Below are positions 1,258 through 18,955 of a stretch of DNA of 20,436 bases, one piece after another. Under the pieces are notes generated by a model. That model had not been told where the DNA came from and made no database searches. It saw only the letters and a program-made list of their open reading frames with translations. The first letter of the stretch is position 1. Each line of letters begins with the position of its first letter. This stretch comes from a virus. The stretch is taken from positions 1 through 20,436 of IMG/VR virus record IMGVR_UViG_3300025325_000690; one strand, 5' to 3'. The translations under genes and the position numbers were made by a program.

Positions 1258-1719
1258 ATGAAGCATCTAACATCCCAGGAGAAAGACAGCCGATTAGGCG
1301 AGTGGCATGCGTTGCGCGCGGTCTCGGTTGACCATAGTGTGCCGGGGACGCCTGACCCAGAGATCTATGGCCTTGTTGATCGCTTAAACGAAATCGAGGG
1401 GGTGTGCGTAATTCAGTCCTGCTCAGGGCACAAGTCCTCCGAGCGTAAAGCGGAGGGCCGCACATTTAAGCGAGCGATACTTTGGCTGCGGGTTGAGGAA
1501 AGGCTACTTCGCGCGTTTGAGGGGCTCGCGTCGAGGCTCTACAGCTCTCCACTGGTGGATGAAGTCTGTGTCCGCTATGGGCGTGAGGTGGGACCGGTGA
1601 TTGAAGTGATCTTCGACGGAAAAGAATCAGGGAGACTGGGGCGTTCTCGGCGCCATCTTATTTCGTTCTTCAACGAACTGGCGGGGGCCGACGCCCCCGC
1701 CAGTCGTTACGGCACCTAG
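1258..1719 (+). CDS. Hypothetical protein with an IQSCSGH motif
   Basis: A 153-residue protein. Residues 35-62 (LVDRLNEIEGVCVIQSCSGH region) resemble a motif found in several uncharacterised phage and bacterial proteins, and loosely the SCSG strand of TYW3-like proteins. I do not assign a tRNA-modification function on that basis. The rest is alpha/beta with an Arg-rich C-terminus. ATG 1258 is the first start after an in-frame TAG and lacks a clear SD. Codon use is less GC-biased than in the flanking phage genes, so it may be a recently acquired cargo gene. Its last codons contain a perfect hairpin. Confidence 0.65.
   Translation: MKHLTSQEKDSRLGEWHALRAVSVDHSVPGTPDPEIYGLVDRLNEIEGVCVIQSCSGHKSSERKAEGRTFKRAILWLRVEERLLRAFEGLASRLYSSPLVDEVCVRYGREVGPVIEVIFDGKESGRLGRSRRHLISFFNELAGADAPASRYGT
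1678..1703 (+). terminator. Perfect 11-bp GC hairpin at the gene end
   Basis: CTGGCGGGGGC and GCCCCCGCCAG pair perfectly around a CGAC tetraloop. It lies inside the last codons of the SCSGH gene and ends 14 bases before its stop. There is no T-tract on either side, so it is a transcript-end or pause hairpin rather than a standard intrinsic terminator. It lies just beyond the point where a leftward reading frame converges on the same CTAG. Confidence 0.5.
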
Positions 1720-2353: not shown

Positions 2354-2612
2354 TCACGACATTACAATCGAGCCTGAGCAGGCTGGGTTCGGCGAAATTC
2401 GCGGGCGTATAGAATGTCACGCGGGCGTCTATTTGGAAGTCCAGAAGCTGTATGAAACCCGCGAGCGCTCCGGCCGCATCGAGGCTCGAACCTGGAAGTA
2501 CTCTTATCATGCTGGATTCTCTGACGATGGTAGACGAATCCTCCGTTACGATAACGCGGATCAGCCGGGCGGGCTTTCTGTTATACTGATGGGCGCACAC
2601 GCTCGGGCGTGA
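2268..2612 (+). CDS. TumE-like toxin, C-terminus apparently truncated
   Basis: A 114-residue protein resembling the TumE toxin family: an N-terminal helix NYLHVLLRVL, a strand pair with GEIRGRIECHAG and VYLEVQKLYE, then the hallmark KYSYH followed by RRILRYDNA. In members I remember, the RYDNA strand leads to a His-rich P-H-H...F-P-H-x-K-H tail thought to be part of the active site. Here the frame runs instead into DQPGGLSVIL and stops, inside the first copy of a repeated promoter/terminator element. The toxin may therefore be inactive or altered. ATG 2268 has a weak SD and would be coupled to the antitoxin. Family is fairly sure; activity is not. Confidence 0.6.
   Translation: MLGKHGWNNRENYLHVLLRVLSDHPFVVSHDITIEPEQAGFGEIRGRIECHAGVYLEVQKLYETRERSGRIEARTWKYSYHAGFSDDGRRILRYDNADQPGGLSVILMGAHARA
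2574..2587 (+). promoter_or_regulatory. Extended -10 promoter candidate, copy 1
   Basis: The box CTTTCTGTTATACT contains an extended -10 (TGTTATACT at 2579-2587). It is the first of three near-identical boxes, lies inside the 3' end of the toxin ORF and would start a transcript near 2594. No good -35 is seen, as expected for an extended -10 promoter. Confidence 0.45.
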
Positions 2613-2656
2613 GCTTTCATGAGCAGCGAGTCCGTCCTTCGGGGCGGACTTTCTGT
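2594..2656 (+). ncRNA. Candidate ~60-nt small RNA
   Basis: Between promoter copy 1 and the terminator at 2629-2650 lies a compact transcript unit without a reading frame. It would contain the hairpin CACGC-TCGG-GCGTG (2598-2611), a weak GCT/AGC hairpin around 2613-2623, and the terminator stem. Promoter, two hairpins and an intrinsic terminator within about 80 bases is the form of a bacterial or phage small RNA. Role unknown; its place just after a TA pair makes a regulatory link possible but unproven. Confidence 0.35.
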
Positions 2657-2657
2657 T
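2629..2657 (+). terminator. Rho-independent terminator with UUCG loop
   Basis: AGTCCGTCC pairs over all 9 positions (one T-G) with GGGCGGACT around a TTCG tetraloop, followed by TTTCTGTT. This is a strong intrinsic terminator for the TA transcript and for the candidate small RNA. Its tail runs directly into the second extended -10 box, so termination and re-initiation are only a few bases apart. Confidence 0.75.
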
Positions 2658-2662
2658 ATAAT
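2649..2662 (+). promoter_or_regulatory. Extended -10 promoter candidate, copy 2
   Basis: CTTTCTGTTATAAT contains a consensus extended -10, TGTTATAAT (2654-2662). It would drive the structured region at 2668-2870 and possibly the tRNAs. It shares its first bases with the T-tract of the preceding terminator. Confidence 0.55.
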
Positions 2663-2667
2663 CGGGA

Positions 2668-2870
2668 GCGGCTACTCCCCCGCTGTGGCTCGCGCGGGTT
2701 TCATAGCGGGGATATCCGTTAAATGGCCGTCGAAGTCCTGGTCAGCGGTCAGCTCATGGTAGATTCGCAACCTGGCTCGCAAGAGCGCTGGGGCGGCAGC
2801 CCAGAGTGCGGAAACGGCAGGGCCATCAGCGAGCGCTCTTGATAGCGGAGTCCGTTATTGGGGGCGCTTT
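2668..2870 (+). ncRNA. Candidate ~200-nt structured RNA
   Basis: The stretch between promoter copies 2 and 3 has several well-paired elements: GGGAG/CTCCC near its start, CCGCTGTG (2689-2696) with CATAGCGG (2702-2709), a CTGGG/CCCAG hairpin near 2788-2803, and a perfect 10-bp long-range pair CAAGAGCGCT with AGCGCTCTTG (2832-2841) enclosing it. A 39-residue ORF from ATG 2724 exists but has no SD and a composition typical of structured RNA. It is not a tRNA I can fold, nor a tmRNA or RNase P RNA that I recognise. Confidence 0.35.
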
Positions 2871-2880
2871 CTGTTATCCT
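2867..2880 (+). promoter_or_regulatory. Extended -10 promoter candidate, copy 3 (tRNA cluster)
   Basis: CTTTCTGTTATCCT is the third copy of the box; its -10 (TATCCT) is the weakest match. It ends 12 bases before the first base of tRNA-Ser(CGA), the right distance for a tRNA transcript with a very short leader. Confidence 0.45.
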
Positions 2881-2892
2881 TGAGGGCGACAC

Positions 2893-2978
2893 GGAGAGAC
2901 CGCCATTGGCGTGGCATCCTCTCTCGAAAAGAGGTAAGCCGAAAGGCAGTGTGGGTTCAACTCCTACTCTCTCCGCCA
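2893..2978 (+). tRNA. tRNA-Ser (CGA anticodon)
   Basis: Acceptor GGAGAGA pairs with TCTCTCC before discriminator G and an encoded CCA. The anticodon arm is CCTCT-CTCGAAA-AGAGG, giving anticodon CGA for UCG codons. A long variable arm with GCC-GAAA-GGC marks a class II serine tRNA. The T-arm GTGGG-TTCAACT-CCTAC is intact apart from one G-T pair. It is the first of three tRNAs packed within 260 bases. Confidence 0.9.
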
Positions 2979-2981
2979 AAC

Positions 2982-3067
2982 GGAGCGGTGGCCGAGCGGT
3001 AAGGCAGCGGATTGCTAATCCGTACACGGTTCGCCGTGCGCAGGTTCGATTCCTGCCCGCTCCGCCA
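2982..3067 (+). tRNA. tRNA-Ser (GCT anticodon)
   Basis: Acceptor GGAGCGG pairs with CCGCTCC, followed by G and an encoded CCA. The anticodon arm GCGGA-TTGCTAA-TCCGT gives GCT, reading AGC/AGU. The long variable arm ACGG-TTCG-CCGT and the T-arm GCAGG-TTCGATT-CCTGC are canonical for serine. It begins 3 bases after the CCA of the previous tRNA, so both are probably processed from one precursor. Confidence 0.95.
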
Positions 3068-3071
3068 AAGT

Positions 3072-3148
3072 GGGCCTGTAGCCCAATGGCAGAGGCAACC
3101 GTCTCAAAAGCGGTGCAGGTGTAGGTTCGAATCCTACCAGGCCCACCA
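3072..3148 (+). tRNA. tRNA with CAA anticodon (Leu by code, short variable loop)
   Basis: Acceptor GGGCCTG pairs with CAGGCCC, discriminator A and encoded CCA. The T-arm GTAGG-TTCGAAT-CCTAC is perfect. The anticodon arm ACCGT-CTCAAAA-GCGGT puts CAA at 34-36, which reads UUG (Leu). Leucine tRNAs normally have a long variable arm; here the variable loop is only about 6 bases, so it is a class I tRNA body. Charging identity is therefore uncertain. Confidence 0.85.
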
Positions 3149-6021: not shown

Positions 6022-6650
6022 CGCTACCTGGGACCCACTGGTATTTCTCGTCGGGCCGTGAGGCGAACGGCAGCAGACGCAAGCAGGCCGTGGGCAAGAC
6101 GTACACCGTCAAGGGCAAGGTCGTACCCTGCGCCAGCGGCCTGCATGCCTCTGAGCGGGCGATAGACGCACTCCAGTACGGCCACGGCAATATCGCATGG
6201 CGGGTCACGCTAGGGGGCGATGTCGTGGCGCACGGTTCGCCCGTCGATAAGCACGCAGCCTCTGAGCGGACACACTTGGCGATGGCCGACGCGACGATGG
6301 CTCTGCATGAGTTCGCCTGCTGGTGCACGGAGCGGGCGCTGAAGGGGGAGCGCAAGGCAGGGCGGGAGCCGCACCCCGATTCGTGGCGAGCCATCAAGGT
6401 TAAGCGGCTGTGGATGAAAGGCAAGGCCACAGACGAAGAATTGAGCGCGGCGGAGAGCGCGGCGAGGAGCGCGGCGAGGAGCGCGGCGAGGAGCGCGGCG
6501 AGGAGCGCGGCGTGGAGCGCGGCGAGGAGCGCGGCGGAGAGCGCGGCGAGGAGCGCGGCGGAGAGCACGGCGGAGAGCGCGGCGTGGAGCGCGCAGAACC
6601 GCAAACTGGAGGCGATGCTCTCGCGGCTTGTCTGGAGCGTGGGACCGTGA
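6018..6650 (+). CDS. DUF7666-like phage protein with SAAR/SAAE/SAAW repeats
   Basis: A 210-residue protein. Residues ~25-90 (GKTYTVKGKVVPCASGLHAS then IAWRVTLGGDVV) match the DUF7666-type phage domain, in which a short sandwich has a conserved C-x-S-G-x-H-A. Residues 143-190 are twelve tetrapeptides of the form S-A-A-R/E/W encoded by a 12-bp repeat, then SAQNRKLEAML. The repeat should form a long Ala-rich helix. The same combination of domain and repeats is known from other phages; the function is unknown. Coupled by ATGA before and GTGA after. Confidence 0.8.
   Translation: MTLPGTHWYFSSGREANGSRRKQAVGKTYTVKGKVVPCASGLHASERAIDALQYGHGNIAWRVTLGGDVVAHGSPVDKHAASERTHLAMADATMALHEFACWCTERALKGERKAGREPHPDSWRAIKVKRLWMKGKATDEELSAAESAARSAARSAARSAARSAAWSAARSAAESAARSAAESTAESAAWSAQNRKLEAMLSRLVWSVGP
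6444..6590 (+). repeat. Twelve tandem 12-bp units (AGCGCGGCGAGG consensus)
   Basis: Twelve in-frame units of AGC-GCG-GCG-NNN, where the last codon is AGG, GAG or TGG; one unit has ACG for GCG. A partial unit closes the tract. It encodes the S-A-A-x repeat of the DUF7666-like protein. No unit creates a stop in any of the six frames, so long shadow ORFs cross it on both strands. Such a tract is prone to length change by slippage. Confidence 0.95.
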
Positions 6651-8658: not shown

Positions 8659-8670
8659 TGGCAATCGGGG

Positions 8671-8700
8671 GCGCTGATCGGGCAGCGCTCCCGCCAAACG
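8671..8700 (+). repeat. Hairpin repeat copy 1, loop ATCGGG
   Basis: GCGCTG-ATCGGG-CAGCGC (8671-8688) is a perfect 6-bp hairpin, followed by TCCCGCCAAACG and the SD of the next gene. Its 18-mer is the exact reverse complement of the hairpin at 8901-8918, which is followed by the same 12 bases. Confidence 0.7.
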
Positions 8701-8714
8701 AAAGGGGATAGACG

Positions 8715-8969
8715 ATGACGATACCGACACCAACGCGAACGTGGGACGAGGACCGCGAGGCGCTGGGGCAAGCGACTGACCTGCTCGCCTTCGCCAATAG
8801 GTTCCTTCCCGCCGGTCGCGCCTGCCAGATAACGGGCACCACTATTGAACGATGTGGTGGCTGTCAGCCGTGCTGCGCCCAGTTCATCGAGGACTGGCTG
8901 GCGCTGCCCGATCAGCGCTCCCGCCAAACGGAAGGAGAACCCGTGACGAACCTGAGAGGGACTCGCTGA
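8715..8969 (+). CDS. Hypothetical protein with CGGCQPCC
   Basis: An 84-residue protein. ATG 8715 follows AAAGGGGA. WDEDREALGQATDLLAFANR is helical, and CQITGTTIERCGGCQPCCAQF could bind a metal or form disulfides. Not recognised. The second hairpin repeat lies in its 3' coding part, and the last ~10 residues come from sequence that looks like a second SD (GGAAGGAG) and a GTG start at 8942, so the gene end may have been altered by duplication of the hairpin unit. Confidence 0.55.
   Translation: MTIPTPTRTWDEDREALGQATDLLAFANRFLPAGRACQITGTTIERCGGCQPCCAQFIEDWLALPDQRSRQTEGEPVTNLRGTR
8901..8930 (+). repeat. Hairpin repeat copy 2, loop CCCGAT
   Basis: GCGCTG-CCCGAT-CAGCGC (8901-8918) has the same stem as copy 1 but the complementary loop, and is followed by the same TCCCGCCAAACG (8919-8930) and a purine-rich SD. 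It lies inside the coding region of the 8715 gene. Confidence 0.7.
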
Positions 8970-14534: not shown

Positions 14535-14767
14535 AGCGAAAGGAGGCTGACTTCGAGGCCGCTATGGCCTTGTTGCGATCCGAGGCAGAAAGGTGGCTCG
14601 CGCTTGCGGAGGACCGAGGTCGTCGAGCGTGGATTGATATCGAGGCGGCGCAAAAGGCATTGATTAGCATTGACATTACAATCGGCGCTTACAAAGAGGC
14701 CAAGGTGAAGCGAAAGGAGACTGACGATGCCGATAACCCTTACCCCTATCGCGGTGACGGACGATGA
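14531..14767 (+). CDS. Helical hypothetical protein with a duplicated end motif
   Basis: A 78-residue protein at the ATGA overlap, nearly all helix (EADFEAAMALLRSEAERWLALAE). It begins MKRKEAD and repeats VKRKETD at residues 59-65; the DNA of the two sites matches at 19 of 21 bases. The second copy supplies the SD of the next gene, and the last ~14 codons overlap that gene. The original protein may have ended near residue 58. Confidence 0.6.
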   Translation: MKRKEADFEAAMALLRSEAERWLALAEDRGRRAWIDIEAAQKALISIDITIGAYKEAKVKRKETDDADNPYPYRGDGR

Positions 14768-14996
14768 CGGTGCCGTGCAGCAGTACCACATTGCGGAGGT
14801 CGCTGGTGAGCAAGACAACCTGGATGCCGCCCGCGCCGCCGGCCACGTGGTCGAGGTGACGTGGGCGGATGTGTTTCTGGCAGTGGCGATGCGCTGTGAC
14901 ACGGATGGTCATTGGACACCAGGGATCGTGGAGGAATTCGTCGGCGATCTCCGCACCTTCCTCTGCGACCGCTGCTTCGGGCTGGGCGGCGAGTGA
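14727..14996 (+). CDS. Hypothetical protein with C-terminal CDRCFGLGG
   Basis: An 89-residue protein from ATG 14727, 7 bases after AAAGGAG. ITLTPIAVTDDDGAVQQYHIAEV is beta-rich, VTWADVFLAVAMRC helical (compare LTWAHIFKALE in the gene at 14077), and CDRCFGLGG closes it. The shared TWA-x-x-F segment suggests distant paralogy with that gene. It overlaps the previous gene by 41 bases. Confidence 0.65.
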   Translation: MPITLTPIAVTDDDGAVQQYHIAEVAGEQDNLDAARAAGHVVEVTWADVFLAVAMRCDTDGHWTPGIVEEFVGDLRTFLCDRCFGLGGE

Positions 14997-15466
14997 CACT
15001 GGCCATCTACGCCCCGCCGGAAGTCGAGCAGGCATGGCGCCGCGCCTCCCGTATGCTCCGCGTGTACTACTTCGCGGGCTTGACGGGCTTCGCCTCCCGT
15101 AAGTGGCGCGAGGAGTTGGGCGTGCGCGTCGACGGTACGCCCTCTGACCCGATGGACCTGGTGGCCGCCGTCCTCTCCGCGGATCACGCGATGATGGCGC
15201 TCCGCAAACGGCACGTTAAGGCGTACACCCTGCTGATGCACGACATTGAGCGCCGTTGCGACCAGTCCCGCGACGCCAAGCACGAATGCGACAACGCCTG
15301 TGAGCGCTGGTACAACGAACGGGGTACGGGCGTGGCGCAACTCCTGGGTTTGACGCAGGAGACGGCGCACGGCTGGTACGAGGCGGGCAAGTGGTTCGTC
15401 TGGTGGCTGCTTGAGGGCGACGGCTGCGAGCCTAACGCGGTGACGGAGGGGTTGGGGATTGCGTAG
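14993..15466 (+). CDS. Hypothetical helical protein at the end of the early operon
   Basis: A 157-residue protein from GTG 14993 in the GTGA overlap. Helices such as PEVEQAWRRASRMLRVYYFAG and SADHAMMALRKRHVKAYTLLMHDIE, and a tail with LGLTQETAHGWYEAGKWFVWWLLEG, suggest an all-alpha fold, possibly of the kind seen in phage late-gene regulators (ArpU/RinA-like), but I see no firm match. As the last gene before a new promoter block, a late-control role is a reasonable guess only. Confidence 0.6.
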   Translation: MTLAIYAPPEVEQAWRRASRMLRVYYFAGLTGFASRKWREELGVRVDGTPSDPMDLVAAVLSADHAMMALRKRHVKAYTLLMHDIERRCDQSRDAKHECDNACERWYNERGTGVAQLLGLTQETAHGWYEAGKWFVWWLLEGDGCEPNAVTEGLGIA

Positions 15467-15485
15467 TCGGTCGTTGGTGCAACCA

Positions 15486-15494
15486 TGCTATACT
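15486..15494 (+). promoter_or_regulatory. Extended -10 promoter before the structured RNA
   Basis: TGCTATACT is an extended -10 just after the end of the early operon, without a convincing -35 at 17 bases. It would start transcription near 15501, at the first base of a series of stable hairpins. Confidence 0.45.
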
Positions 15495-15500
15495 CCTGTT

Positions 15501-15707
15501 AGTCGCAGTCCAAAAGAGCGACCGGCCCTCGTGGCCGGGCAGCGTGGGGCAGCGAAGGTGGTCCCCCGGTGGCTTAGTGGTGTAGTGAAACCTGACGGAG
15601 CGACGGTCAGGAGCCACCGTAGCTCAACTGGCACCGAACACCTGGACACTTCTACCCCATCTCTCCGTTCGTGCCCCGTGACGGAGGGCTAAGCAAGGCC
15701 CTCCGTC
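15501..15707 (+). ncRNA. Candidate ~200-nt structured RNA with tRNA-like parts
   Basis: Successive hairpins fill this gap: GTCGC/GCGAC (15502-15522), CGGCC-CTCGT-GGCCG (15523-15537), and GGTGGCT (15568-15574) with AGCCACC (15612-15618), the last directly abutting the stem CCTGAC/GTCAGG (15591-15611), as a T-arm abuts an acceptor stem. GTAGCTCAACTGGCA then copies a tRNA D-arm consensus, but no full tRNA can be folded. GACGGAGGGC/GCCCTCCGTC (15680-15707) ends it, with a weak GTCTCTG tail. The last ~55 bases are antisense to a leftward gene. Confidence 0.4.
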
Positions 15708-15825
15708 GTCTCTGTGCGGTGCGGTTGACGCATTTGCGGGAGCAGTACCGCGCGTCGAATCGCTTGCTGGGCGGGATCGGGTTGCCGCACCCGTCGGCGG
15801 CGCAAATCTTAGTCGTCACGCTCAT
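15652..15825 (-). CDS. Leftward Cys-rich small protein
   Basis: A 57-residue minus-strand protein. ATG at 15825 has a GGAGGAGG SD 8 bases upstream; a longer frame to 16038 lacks support. CAADGCGNPIPPSKRFDARYCSRKC followed by AQRRRRAL is a known small zinc-finger pattern in phages and actinobacteria (C-x4-C...Y-C-S-x2-C then a basic helix), probably nucleic-acid binding. Third gene of a leftward mini-operon, joined to the gene above by ATGA. Confidence 0.75.
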   Translation of the reverse strand: MSVTTKICAADGCGNPIPPSKRFDARYCSRKCVNRTAQRRRRALLSPPSRGTNGEMG

Positions 15826-15992
15826 CGCTGATCCTCCTCCAGGCGTTCGGTGACTTGTGTGAGTGTGTCGAAGCGCTTCCCGCCGACCGTTACGGACCAG
15901 CCGCCTTCCTGCCACTTGATTAGTTCGGCTGGCTCGGGCCATCCGGCAGTTATCAACTGCTTCCCGGCTCTGAGTGCCTCTCGCTTTGTCAT
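15822..15992 (-). CDS. Leftward 56-residue hypothetical protein
   Basis: ATG at 15992 (minus strand), preceded by GAAAGGACGG, encodes MTKREALRAGKQLITAGWPE followed by IKWQEGGWSVTVGGKRFDTL and a short helix. A helix plus beta-hairpin suggests a compact fold like HicA-type or DUF mini-proteins, without a firm match. It overlaps the next leftward gene by ATGA. Good RBS and clean composition support it although it is short. Confidence 0.7.
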   Translation of the reverse strand: MTKREALRAGKQLITAGWPEPAELIKWQEGGWSVTVGGKRFDTLTQVTERLEEDQR

Positions 15993-16078
15993 TGTCCCGT
16001 CCTTTCCGCTTGCTAGAACCGTTCGCGGAGTCCGTCAACGTGGAGGTTGGCGGATACCGTGAGAGGTGCTAGGCTAGC

Positions 16079-16165
16079 CTACTGGCATGCGCCGGAAGGG
16101 TGCCGCATGCTACCGCAGTACACGCAAGGGTCATACTGATTCGTTGGAGGCTTGCGCTTTTCCAT
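16079..16165 (-). CDS. Leftward 28-residue zinc-knuckle peptide
   Basis: ATG at 16165 (minus strand) after GAAAGGACGGGG, the same RBS as the next leftward gene. It encodes MEKRKPPTNQYDPCVYCGSM then RHPSGACQ. C-V-Y-C-G-x3-H-x4-C is a CCHC-like knuckle. Nearby promoter TTGACA/TACAGT is correctly placed for it to be the first gene of the leftward operon. Confidence 0.65.
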   Translation of the reverse strand: MEKRKPPTNQYDPCVYCGSMRHPSGACQ

Positions 16166-16202: not shown

Positions 16203-16230
16203 ACTGTAACACGTTGTCAGGCAATGTCAA
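16203..16230 (-). promoter_or_regulatory. Leftward promoter of the mini-operon
   Basis: On the minus strand a perfect -35 TTGACA (16225-16230), a 16-base spacer and TACAGT (16203-16208). It points at the 28-residue peptide gene 38 bases away and is the best sigma70-like -35 in the leftward direction. Confidence 0.65.
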
Positions 16231-16296: not shown

Positions 16297-16325
16297 TTGA
16301 CTTCTATAGACGGCGGATTTACATT
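16297..16325 (+). promoter_or_regulatory. Rightward promoter of the packaging genes
   Basis: TTGACT (16297-16302), a 17-base spacer and TACATT (16320-16325), pointing at the terminase genes and diverging from the leftward promoter 66 bases away. The ~200-base gap between the two divergent gene sets shows no other gene. Confidence 0.55.
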
Positions 16326-16370: not shown

Positions 16371-16463
16371 ATGACCGTAGTCTATCTCTGGAGCAGGCTC
16401 ACGCAGTCCCACGTTCGCGTTGACGCCATGCTGTACAGTGCGAGGCCAGTACCACAACGATGA
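16371..16463 (+). CDS. 30-residue leader peptide before the small terminase
   Basis: ATG 16371 lies 4 bases after a perfect AGGAGG and encodes MTVVYLWSRLTQSHVRVDAM plus ten residues. Its TGA overlaps the ATG of the small terminase gene, which lacks its own SD, so this peptide probably serves to couple ribosomes into it. The short SD spacing is a little unusual. Confidence 0.5.
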   Translation: MTVVYLWSRLTQSHVRVDAMLYSARPVPQR

Positions 16464-16843
16464 CCGCCGATCCCGAGACGCTTCAGGCTGTCGCCCATCT
16501 AACCGCGGCCGGGAAGTCTACTCGCGAGATTGCCCCCATCGTTGGTGTCTCGCATGCCACGGTCAACAACTACCAGCACCTTGACGAGGTTAGGCAGGTA
16601 ATCAATGACCTCCGCCCCCGTATCGCCGCCCGCCTCAGTCAACGTATGTGGGACTTGATCGACGCCGAAGACTTCGCCCCCAAGCCCCAGGAACTTGCAG
16701 TTGTTTGGGGTATCGCCATGGATAAGCACATGAAGGCCGAACAGCCAACTCAGGGTAATCCCACCCTCGTTATCGTGCTCCCAGGACTGGATCGAGCACC
16801 CGATCCACAGCCGCTAACCATAGACGCGGGGCCACAAGCGTAA
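16460..16843 (+). CDS. terS: Putative small terminase subunit
   Basis: A 127-residue protein. Residues 7-38 (LQAVAHLTAAGKSTREIAPIVGVSHATVNNY) are a helix-turn-helix of the type found at the N-terminus of phage small terminases; helical PRIAARLSQRMWDLIDAE may be the oligomerisation part, and the Pro-rich tail may contact the large subunit. It would recognise the packaging start site. Position before terL supports this, although a 480-base gap lies between them. A transcription regulator is the alternative. Confidence 0.65.
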   Translation: MTADPETLQAVAHLTAAGKSTREIAPIVGVSHATVNNYQHLDEVRQVINDLRPRIAARLSQRMWDLIDAEDFAPKPQELAVVWGIAMDKHMKAEQPTQGNPTLVIVLPGLDRAPDPQPLTIDAGPQA

Positions 16844-17623: not shown

Positions 17624-18955
17624 GTGGCGAATGTGGTAGCTGAAGTGGCGGCGTATCCGGCGAACGCGAAGGTGATCGAGGTGATGGCGGGGGCGCAGGC
17701 GGAGTTCGTGCGGAGTGAGGCGCGGTATCCGGGGTACTTTGCGGGGCGGCGTGGCGGGAAGACCTCGGCGTCGGTCATCAAGATGGTGCGCTACATGACG
17801 TCGTATCCAGGAGCGTACTTCATGTTCACCGTCCCGACCTTGGGGGACGTGGACCGGATTCTCCTTCCCAAGATGCGGGAGTTCTTCGGGGTGTTCGAGG
17901 GGGATATGTGGGGGTGGTTGGAGAAAAAGAGTCAGATCGTCTTCCCGAAGCACCGGGGGCCGAACGGGGAGGGTGGAGTGGTGTTCGTCAGGCCAGCGTC
18001 GGAACCGGACTCCATGCGCGGGCCGACTCTGGCAGCGGCCGCGATGGACGAGATCGGAACGGAGGACCAGCACGCCGCCTTCCAGATCCTGCAACCCGCG
18101 GTGTTCGGCGGACAGCCGGGCTTCCCCCACCAGATATGGGTCACGAGCACCCCTCGGGTGGAGCGCAAGTGGGTGAAGCAGAGGTGGGCGGACCACCTGA
18201 ACCCGCTGACCGGAGACCCGCTGCCCCCCGAGGACTACCCCATCTTCCGGGCGCGCACGGTGGACAACTACCACCTGGAGGCGGAGGCAATCCAGTCGCT
18301 TGTGAGCGAGTTCGGCAACAGCCGTGAGGCCCAGCAGGAGCTGGAGGGCGAGTTCATCGCCCTTGAGGGCACGGTGTTCGGGATGCTCGACCCGGAAGTC
18401 CACCTGCGTTACCCCCCGGAGGATACGGTGTTCACCCGGACGGTGTTCGGCTTCGACATCGGCGGCAGTGCCCCGACGGCGATCATCCAGTGGAAGCTGG
18501 ACCGGCAGTTCCGTAAGTGGGCCGTGGCCGAGTTCTATAAGCCCGACGCCGACGAATACGAATGGGTGAAGTGGCTCGCCGACCGGGGTGCGCTGCGGGT
18601 CTTCTGCGATCCCGCCATCAGTGACAGGACGCTCCTGTACTGGAGCCGCGTCCACGGGATCAGGTTCGTCCGGGCGCGGGACAAGACCCACGAGGGACGG
18701 CTGAACGTCTGGAAGACGGGCCTGTCTCACGAGACGCGCCCCCCGAGCATCTTCATCTCGCCGGATTGCCCTATGCTCTGGAACGAACTCCTTGAGCTTC
18801 GGCGGAAGAGGGTCGGGGACGAGGAATACTCCGAGGCGTGGGCGCGGAGCACGGCAGACCACGCCTACGACGCCGGAGCCTACGGCTTGCAGGAACTCCA
18901 GTTCCCAAAGACCGCGCTGCCCCAGCCGGCTCAACTTGTCGGAGCCGTGAGATGA
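17624..18955 (+). CDS. terL: Large terminase subunit
   Basis: A 443-residue packaging motor. Walker A GRRGGKTS (41-48), Walker B AAAAMDE (137-143) with catalytic Glu 143, and coupling motif TSTP (174-177) form the ATPase. The RNase H-like nuclease has Asp 278 in FGFDIGG, Asp 329 in VFCDP and Asp 412/416 in TADHAYDAG. Length is typical. GTG 17624 is chosen because it is the first start in frame; no SD is seen apart from G-runs in the terminator stem. It pumps DNA into the portal and cuts it. Confidence 0.95.
   Translation: MANVVAEVAAYPANAKVIEVMAGAQAEFVRSEARYPGYFAGRRGGKTSASVIKMVRYMTSYPGAYFMFTVPTLGDVDRILLPKMREFFGVFEGDMWGWLEKKSQIVFPKHRGPNGEGGVVFVRPASEPDSMRGPTLAAAAMDEIGTEDQHAAFQILQPAVFGGQPGFPHQIWVTSTPRVERKWVKQRWADHLNPLTGDPLPPEDYPIFRARTVDNYHLEAEAIQSLVSEFGNSREAQQELEGEFIALEGTVFGMLDPEVHLRYPPEDTVFTRTVFGFDIGGSAPTAIIQWKLDRQFRKWAVAEFYKPDADEYEWVKWLADRGALRVFCDPAISDRTLLYWSRVHGIRFVRARDKTHEGRLNVWKTGLSHETRPPSIFISPDCPMLWNELLELRRKRVGDEEYSEAWARSTADHAYDAGAYGLQELQFPKTALPQPAQLVGAVR

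Follow-up and report, generated by a model that had tools for sequence, protein, structure and literature searches.

A stretch with tRNA-like motifs in an uncultivated phage genome as the probable meeting point of two opposed operons

Introduction

Bacteriophage lambda makes a short leader RNA from pR'. The Q protein acts at pR' to let transcription pass a terminator (PMC6266700). Noncontiguous operons are noted for phage genomes in an account of the excludon concept (PMC7154746). These systems, together with overlapping 3' UTRs and tRNA (RF00005), were used as the points of comparison for the locus described here.

The window analysed is the whole of a 20,436-bp linear fragment of an uncultivated phage (IMG/VR virus record IMGVR_UViG_3300025325_000690). 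An earlier note, made from the letters of the DNA, had described positions 15486-15720 as a structured RNA with a promoter box, five stems, a tRNA-like stack, a D-arm-like sequence and a final stem antisense to a leftward gene, and had proposed an antisense regulator, a decoy for a tRNA-binding enzyme or a tRNA relic. Here the stretch is read as a collision zone, in which the ends of two opposed phage operons would overlap, with a probability of roughly 0.6.

Noncontiguous operons and overlapping 3' UTRs of convergent genes (PMC7154746) have in common with this gap opposed units that would overlap at their ends and a leftward cassette lying between rightward blocks. The present locus differs in that its overlap is predicted from motifs. 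The likeness to lambda pR' and Q (PMC6266700) is a possible promoter and a terminator hairpin placed directly after the last early-type gene; the phage differs in having no Q-like protein by Pfam or PHROG and no identified qut site. It differs also in that an opposed cassette separates its leader site from the late genes.

Results

Gene layout and the convergent gap

The rightward operon ends with a gene of 157 amino acids at 14993-15466 (plus strand), which overlaps the preceding rightward gene (14727-14996, plus strand) by 4 bases and has a GC content of 0.66/0.47/0.87 at the three codon positions, like other genes. Its product had no match in Pfam at E values up to 1, PHROG offered nothing better than E 0.28, and its structure model (mean pLDDT 42) was too poor for use. 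The facing cassette on the minus strand comprises a 57-aa zinc-ribbon gene at 15652-15825 with a good ribosome site, a 56-aa gene at 15822-15992 and a 28-aa gene with a CxxC...H...C pattern at 16079-16165, the last two each with the ribosome site GAAAGGACGGG. The next rightward block is opened by a helix-turn-helix protein at 16460-16843 (plus strand), and the terminase large subunit is encoded at 17624-18955 (plus strand).

The end of the plus-strand gene at 15466 faces the end of the minus-strand gene at 15652 across 185 bp (15467-15651). Open frames that cross this interval, at 15459-15692 (plus strand) and 15432-15617 (minus strand), were without the codon-position GC pattern of most neighbours; on this ground and on the gene layout the interval was taken as a convergent gap. 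The stretch singled out by the earlier note starts within the gap, and its right-hand part overlaps the 3' end of the zinc-ribbon gene.

The window also holds two repeats outside this region. A 12-nt tandem repeat at 6407-6622 (plus strand) lies in a coding frame and gives an alanine/arginine/serine-rich stretch. A near-perfect 23-nt inverted repeat (96%) at 8666-8938, with arms 212 nt apart, overlaps a 39-nt direct repeat.

Promoter-like sites

The promoter box claimed in the note was found as an extended -10 box, TGCTATACT, at 15486-15494 (plus strand) by motif count. No recognisable -35 was seen for it by direct reading, and the promoter scan omits the box. Three sites of the form TG.TATA.T were counted over both strands of the window, where 300 shuffles gave an expectation of 0.42; the other two, at 2579 and 2654, precede the tRNA genes. 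A simple ad hoc score placed the 15486 box joint second in the window, and about 0.002 extended -10 boxes were expected on the plus strand of the gap, a figure uncorrected for the many features viewed.

For the leftward cassette, a promoter-like TTGACA-16-TACAGT with a TG was located at 16203-16230 (minus strand, match 10/12). The promoter scan placed a second site, TTGACT-17-TACATT, at 16297-16325 (plus strand), upstream of the next rightward genes.

A 29-nt element with the core CTTTCTGTTAT is present in three copies at 2567-2888 (plus strand), upstream of a tRNA-Ser/Ser/Leu cluster (2893-3148). TGTTATA-T boxes occur in two of the copies and two follow terminator-like hairpins (2628-2651 and 2831-2869), so the element is possibly a repeated terminator-promoter unit.

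Hairpins and fold of the rightward RNA

The terminal 10-bp stem of the earlier note was confirmed as a perfect hairpin, GACGGAGGGC/GCCCTCCGTC, at 15680-15707 (plus strand). It is antisense to the final codons of the zinc-ribbon gene on the other strand and is the probable terminator of rightward transcription. With a fold z-score of -5.29, equalled by 0 of 200 shuffles, it was the only structure well above chance. Of 2034 windows of 100 nt, ranked by stability for their GC, two that include it fall in the top 13, and the whole 20,436-bp window has 2 perfect hairpins of at least 10 bp against 0.35 expected from 60 shuffles. The tail that follows, GTCTCTGTGCGG, is T-poor, and the hairpin lies 214 nt beyond the rightward stop codon. 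A stronger hairpin (z -6.50) was found at 1676-1705 (plus strand), placed likewise in the last codons of an ORF (1258-1719), and this position was counted in favour of a terminator embedded in a gene end.

On the minus strand, a terminator-like hairpin of the form CCGGCC-loop-GGCCGG with the T-rich tail TCGCTCTTTT occupies 15538-15512 and is a weak candidate for the end of the leftward cassette. Matches of this kind were no more frequent than in shuffles (2 found, 2.4 expected), and the hairpin had a z-score of -0.53. The pairing probability of this hairpin was 0.0 in a 140-nt minus-strand piece and 0.67-0.99 in a 322-nt piece.

A rightward RNA started 7 nt past the -10 box and ended at the strong hairpin would span 15501-15712 (plus strand, 212 nt). 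The slightly longer 221-nt plus RNA (15500-15720) folded with a z-score of -0.60, and 53 of 200 shuffles folded equally well. The claim that five stems form one structured RNA was not borne out: the only likely stems in the 212-nt RNA were 15522-15538 (pairing probability 0.60-0.98) and 15680-15707 (0.99-1.0). A stem of nine pairs with one bulge and a 27-nt loop at 15630-15675 (plus strand) reached a pairing probability of at most 0.18 in the same RNA; the piece 15625-15677 folded alone gave a z-score of -2.3. Elsewhere in the window, the most stable 100-nt window after correction for GC (z -3.9) fell at 16001-16120 (plus strand), between the 28-aa and 56-aa leftward genes.

Overlap of the two operon ends

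From the layout and the motifs we infer the following course of transcription. The transcript of the rightward operon would continue past 15466 into the gap and would be stopped mainly by the 15680-15707 hairpin, which lies within the final codons of the gene that faces it. The leftward message, started at the 16230-16203 promoter, would carry the genes at 16165-15652, cross the gap and may end at the small hairpin with the T-rich tail at 15538-15512. Since each message would cross the gap before its stop, the two would overlap over some 200 nt at their 3' ends. A short, terminated RNA in antisense may also arise from the extended -10 box at 15486.

The ribosome sites, the codon-position GC, the leftward promoter with its 10/12 match and the exceptional plus-strand hairpin fit best with this arrangement of convergent ends, and so do the chance-level fold of the whole rightward RNA, the chance-level tRNA scores and the low predicted pairing of the tRNA-like stack on that RNA. 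Against it stand the T-poor tail of the plus hairpin and its distance from the rightward stop codon, and a minus terminator no better than shuffles. The extended -10 box also counts against it, being unexpected at a plain operon end. The poor T tail, the weak minus terminator and the box together leave room for an antisense RNA and for a late leader. As an operon junction the site looks ordinary and is of minor importance; an antisense or noncontiguous-operon reading, if true, would make it another phage case of regulation through opposed overlapping transcripts.

Antisense RNA and late leader

Of these two alternatives, the first is tentative, at well below even odds. A dedicated RNA of about 210 nt would run from the 15486 box to the 15680-15707 hairpin and would tune or silence the leftward cassette, either by pairing with the 3' end of its message or by polymerase collision. 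The box is among the best in the window and is one of its three TG.TATA.T sites, and the strong hairpin lies at a suitable distance from it. The complementarity that the note had pointed to is certain from position: any rightward transcript is antisense to the 3' UTR and the final part of the zinc-ribbon gene, and 15652-15712 on the plus strand is the complement of the gene's last codons. This RNA would, however, start without a -35 and is structured as a whole no more than shuffles, and it pairs with the 3' end only, which is a weak site for translation control. No homologue was found for it either: the element gave only chance matches (E 0.9 to 4) in 50,697 phage and 72,556 plasmid records and no match in 20,395 E. 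coli records.

A late rightward leader was judged improbable. Here a promoter placed after the early genes would give a short terminated leader, and an antiterminator would extend it as antisense through the leftward cassette to the terminase, giving a noncontiguous operon of three blocks with mutual exclusion. On this reading the 15486 promoter would serve, with equally little likelihood, as an early/late exclusion switch, in which late antitermination would silence the zinc-ribbon cassette as the terminase is reached. The order of the blocks (rightward, leftward, rightward, with the terminase at the end) agrees with such a scheme, and precedents are given by the readthrough of a terminator by Q at pR' (PMC6266700) and by the noncontiguous operons noted in phage genomes (PMC7154746). 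The 14993-15466 protein, however, has no match to a late-regulator family and its model is poor, and the terminase block has a promoter-like site of its own at 16297-16325.

tRNA-like elements

The features that had suggested a tRNA were examined as single motifs and as a whole. An 8-bp helix stacked on a 6-bp helix, read in the note as acceptor and T-arm, was present at 15567-15619 by motif count. Such a stack was expected 0.033 times per strand (150 shuffles) and was found once in 352,302 base-strands of other natural DNA fetched, a control that has overlapping loci (for example L018/L032 and L019/L020) and one locus, L044, fetched for the motif. The inner stem had a pairing probability of 0.35-0.43 and the outer stem only 0.03 when the 212-nt plus RNA was folded, and the stack is not predicted to form there. 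On the minus strand it reached 0.81-1.0 when 140 nt were folded and about 0.5 with 322 nt; the stack piece alone folded there with a z-score of -2.7, and the 143-nt minus 3' stretch as a whole with 0.03. If the stack has any meaning, these predicted folds make the leftward message its more likely owner.

The D-arm-like sequence was also present, as the 13-nt GTAGCTCAACTGG at 15619-15631 (plus strand; motif count, profile E 0.62). It includes the strict D-arm motif TAGCTCAACTGG at 15620, which occurs once in the window against 0.05 expected (300 shuffles); as with the other motif, stack and hairpin expectations, this figure concerns a feature chosen after it had been seen and is uncorrected for that choice. 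A sequence-only tRNA profile matched only the 16-nt D-arm piece at 15618-15633, with an E value of 0.62 that an unrelated place equalled. In the viral-contig collection a single exact copy of GTAGCTCAACTGGCACC was found; it sits, by reading, in a repeat-rich coding-like stretch in which ARAGORN finds no tRNA, and the rest of that locus is without convincing likeness to the window.

ARAGORN located three tRNA genes in the window, at 2893-3148, and no tRNA at 15486-15720. Rfam gave no tRNA match to the region even at E 10, and RF00005 run over the window likewise gave none here; weak matches to MIAT exon 1 (E 9.6) and to a flavivirus stem (E 6.4) were set aside as chance. A covariance model, R1, was built from 28 tRNAs and the whole window was searched with filters off. 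It marked 30 places at 5.4 bits or more, all of them outside the region. Three are the real tRNAs (63.9, 54.7 and 23.8 bits); the other 27, at 5.4-10.3 bits, are chance places. When the region was searched alone, the terminal hairpin came first with 4.8 bits, on the minus strand, and 15567-15640 scored 3.4 bits. One of the real tRNAs, tRNA-Ser(CGA) at 2893-2978 (plus strand), is weak (28.2 bits with RF00005, 23.8 bits with R1) and lies beside two normal tRNAs.

Positions 15613-15690 bear a loose collinear resemblance to an arginine tRNA, which was dropped because position 15613 ranked 51 of 13,572 in a whole-length alignment with 27 tRNAs. The region thus shares with tRNA (RF00005) the D-arm-like 13-mer and the stack. 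It lacks a T-loop and a matching acceptor end, the 8-bp stem is not followed by CCA, and tRNA models score it at chance.

That the region is a tRNA gene in decay, or a mimic of tRNA, is very improbable. In favour of this, the phage has three tRNA genes and GTAGCTCAACTGG is seldom met except in tRNAs: other DNA amounting to 352 kb-strand gave 24 strict D-arm matches, of which 22 had a downstream T-loop motif, 1 was tRNA-piece-like by eye and 1 had been fetched for the motif. Against it, R1 gave the region at most 4.8 bits, where the real tRNAs scored 23.8 to 63.9 and the 27 other places 5.4 to 10.3; the region's alignment rank is low and its stack is not predicted on the plus strand. With the ARAGORN, Rfam and covariance results the relic proposed in the note fell away, and the decoy idea found no support either in the tRNA models, which stayed at chance, or in the predicted fold of the plus RNA, in which the stack is unlikely to form. 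The tRNA likeness is most likely accidental, arising from chance resemblances in GC-rich DNA. Where short motifs in a GC-rich intergenic stretch recall a tRNA, the whole structure needs to be scored on the correct strand.

Relatives

The whole window gave no DNA match to the 50,697 phage records. At the protein level, terminase relatives in viral contigs shared 23-26% identity, a terminase match in a single bacterial MAG was 26% identical, and a protein scan gave relatives of the replication protein at 33-44% identity. The other protein queries returned no relatives among the viral contigs and genomes, and no close relative was found. One related locus (L010) has a DnaD-like gene followed by a terminase, a gene order similar to that of the window, and gave no tRNA or Rfam match. 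In another (L003, 661-3066) the frame of the terminase relative has a long insertion after a Walker-A-like start, which we take to resemble an intein.
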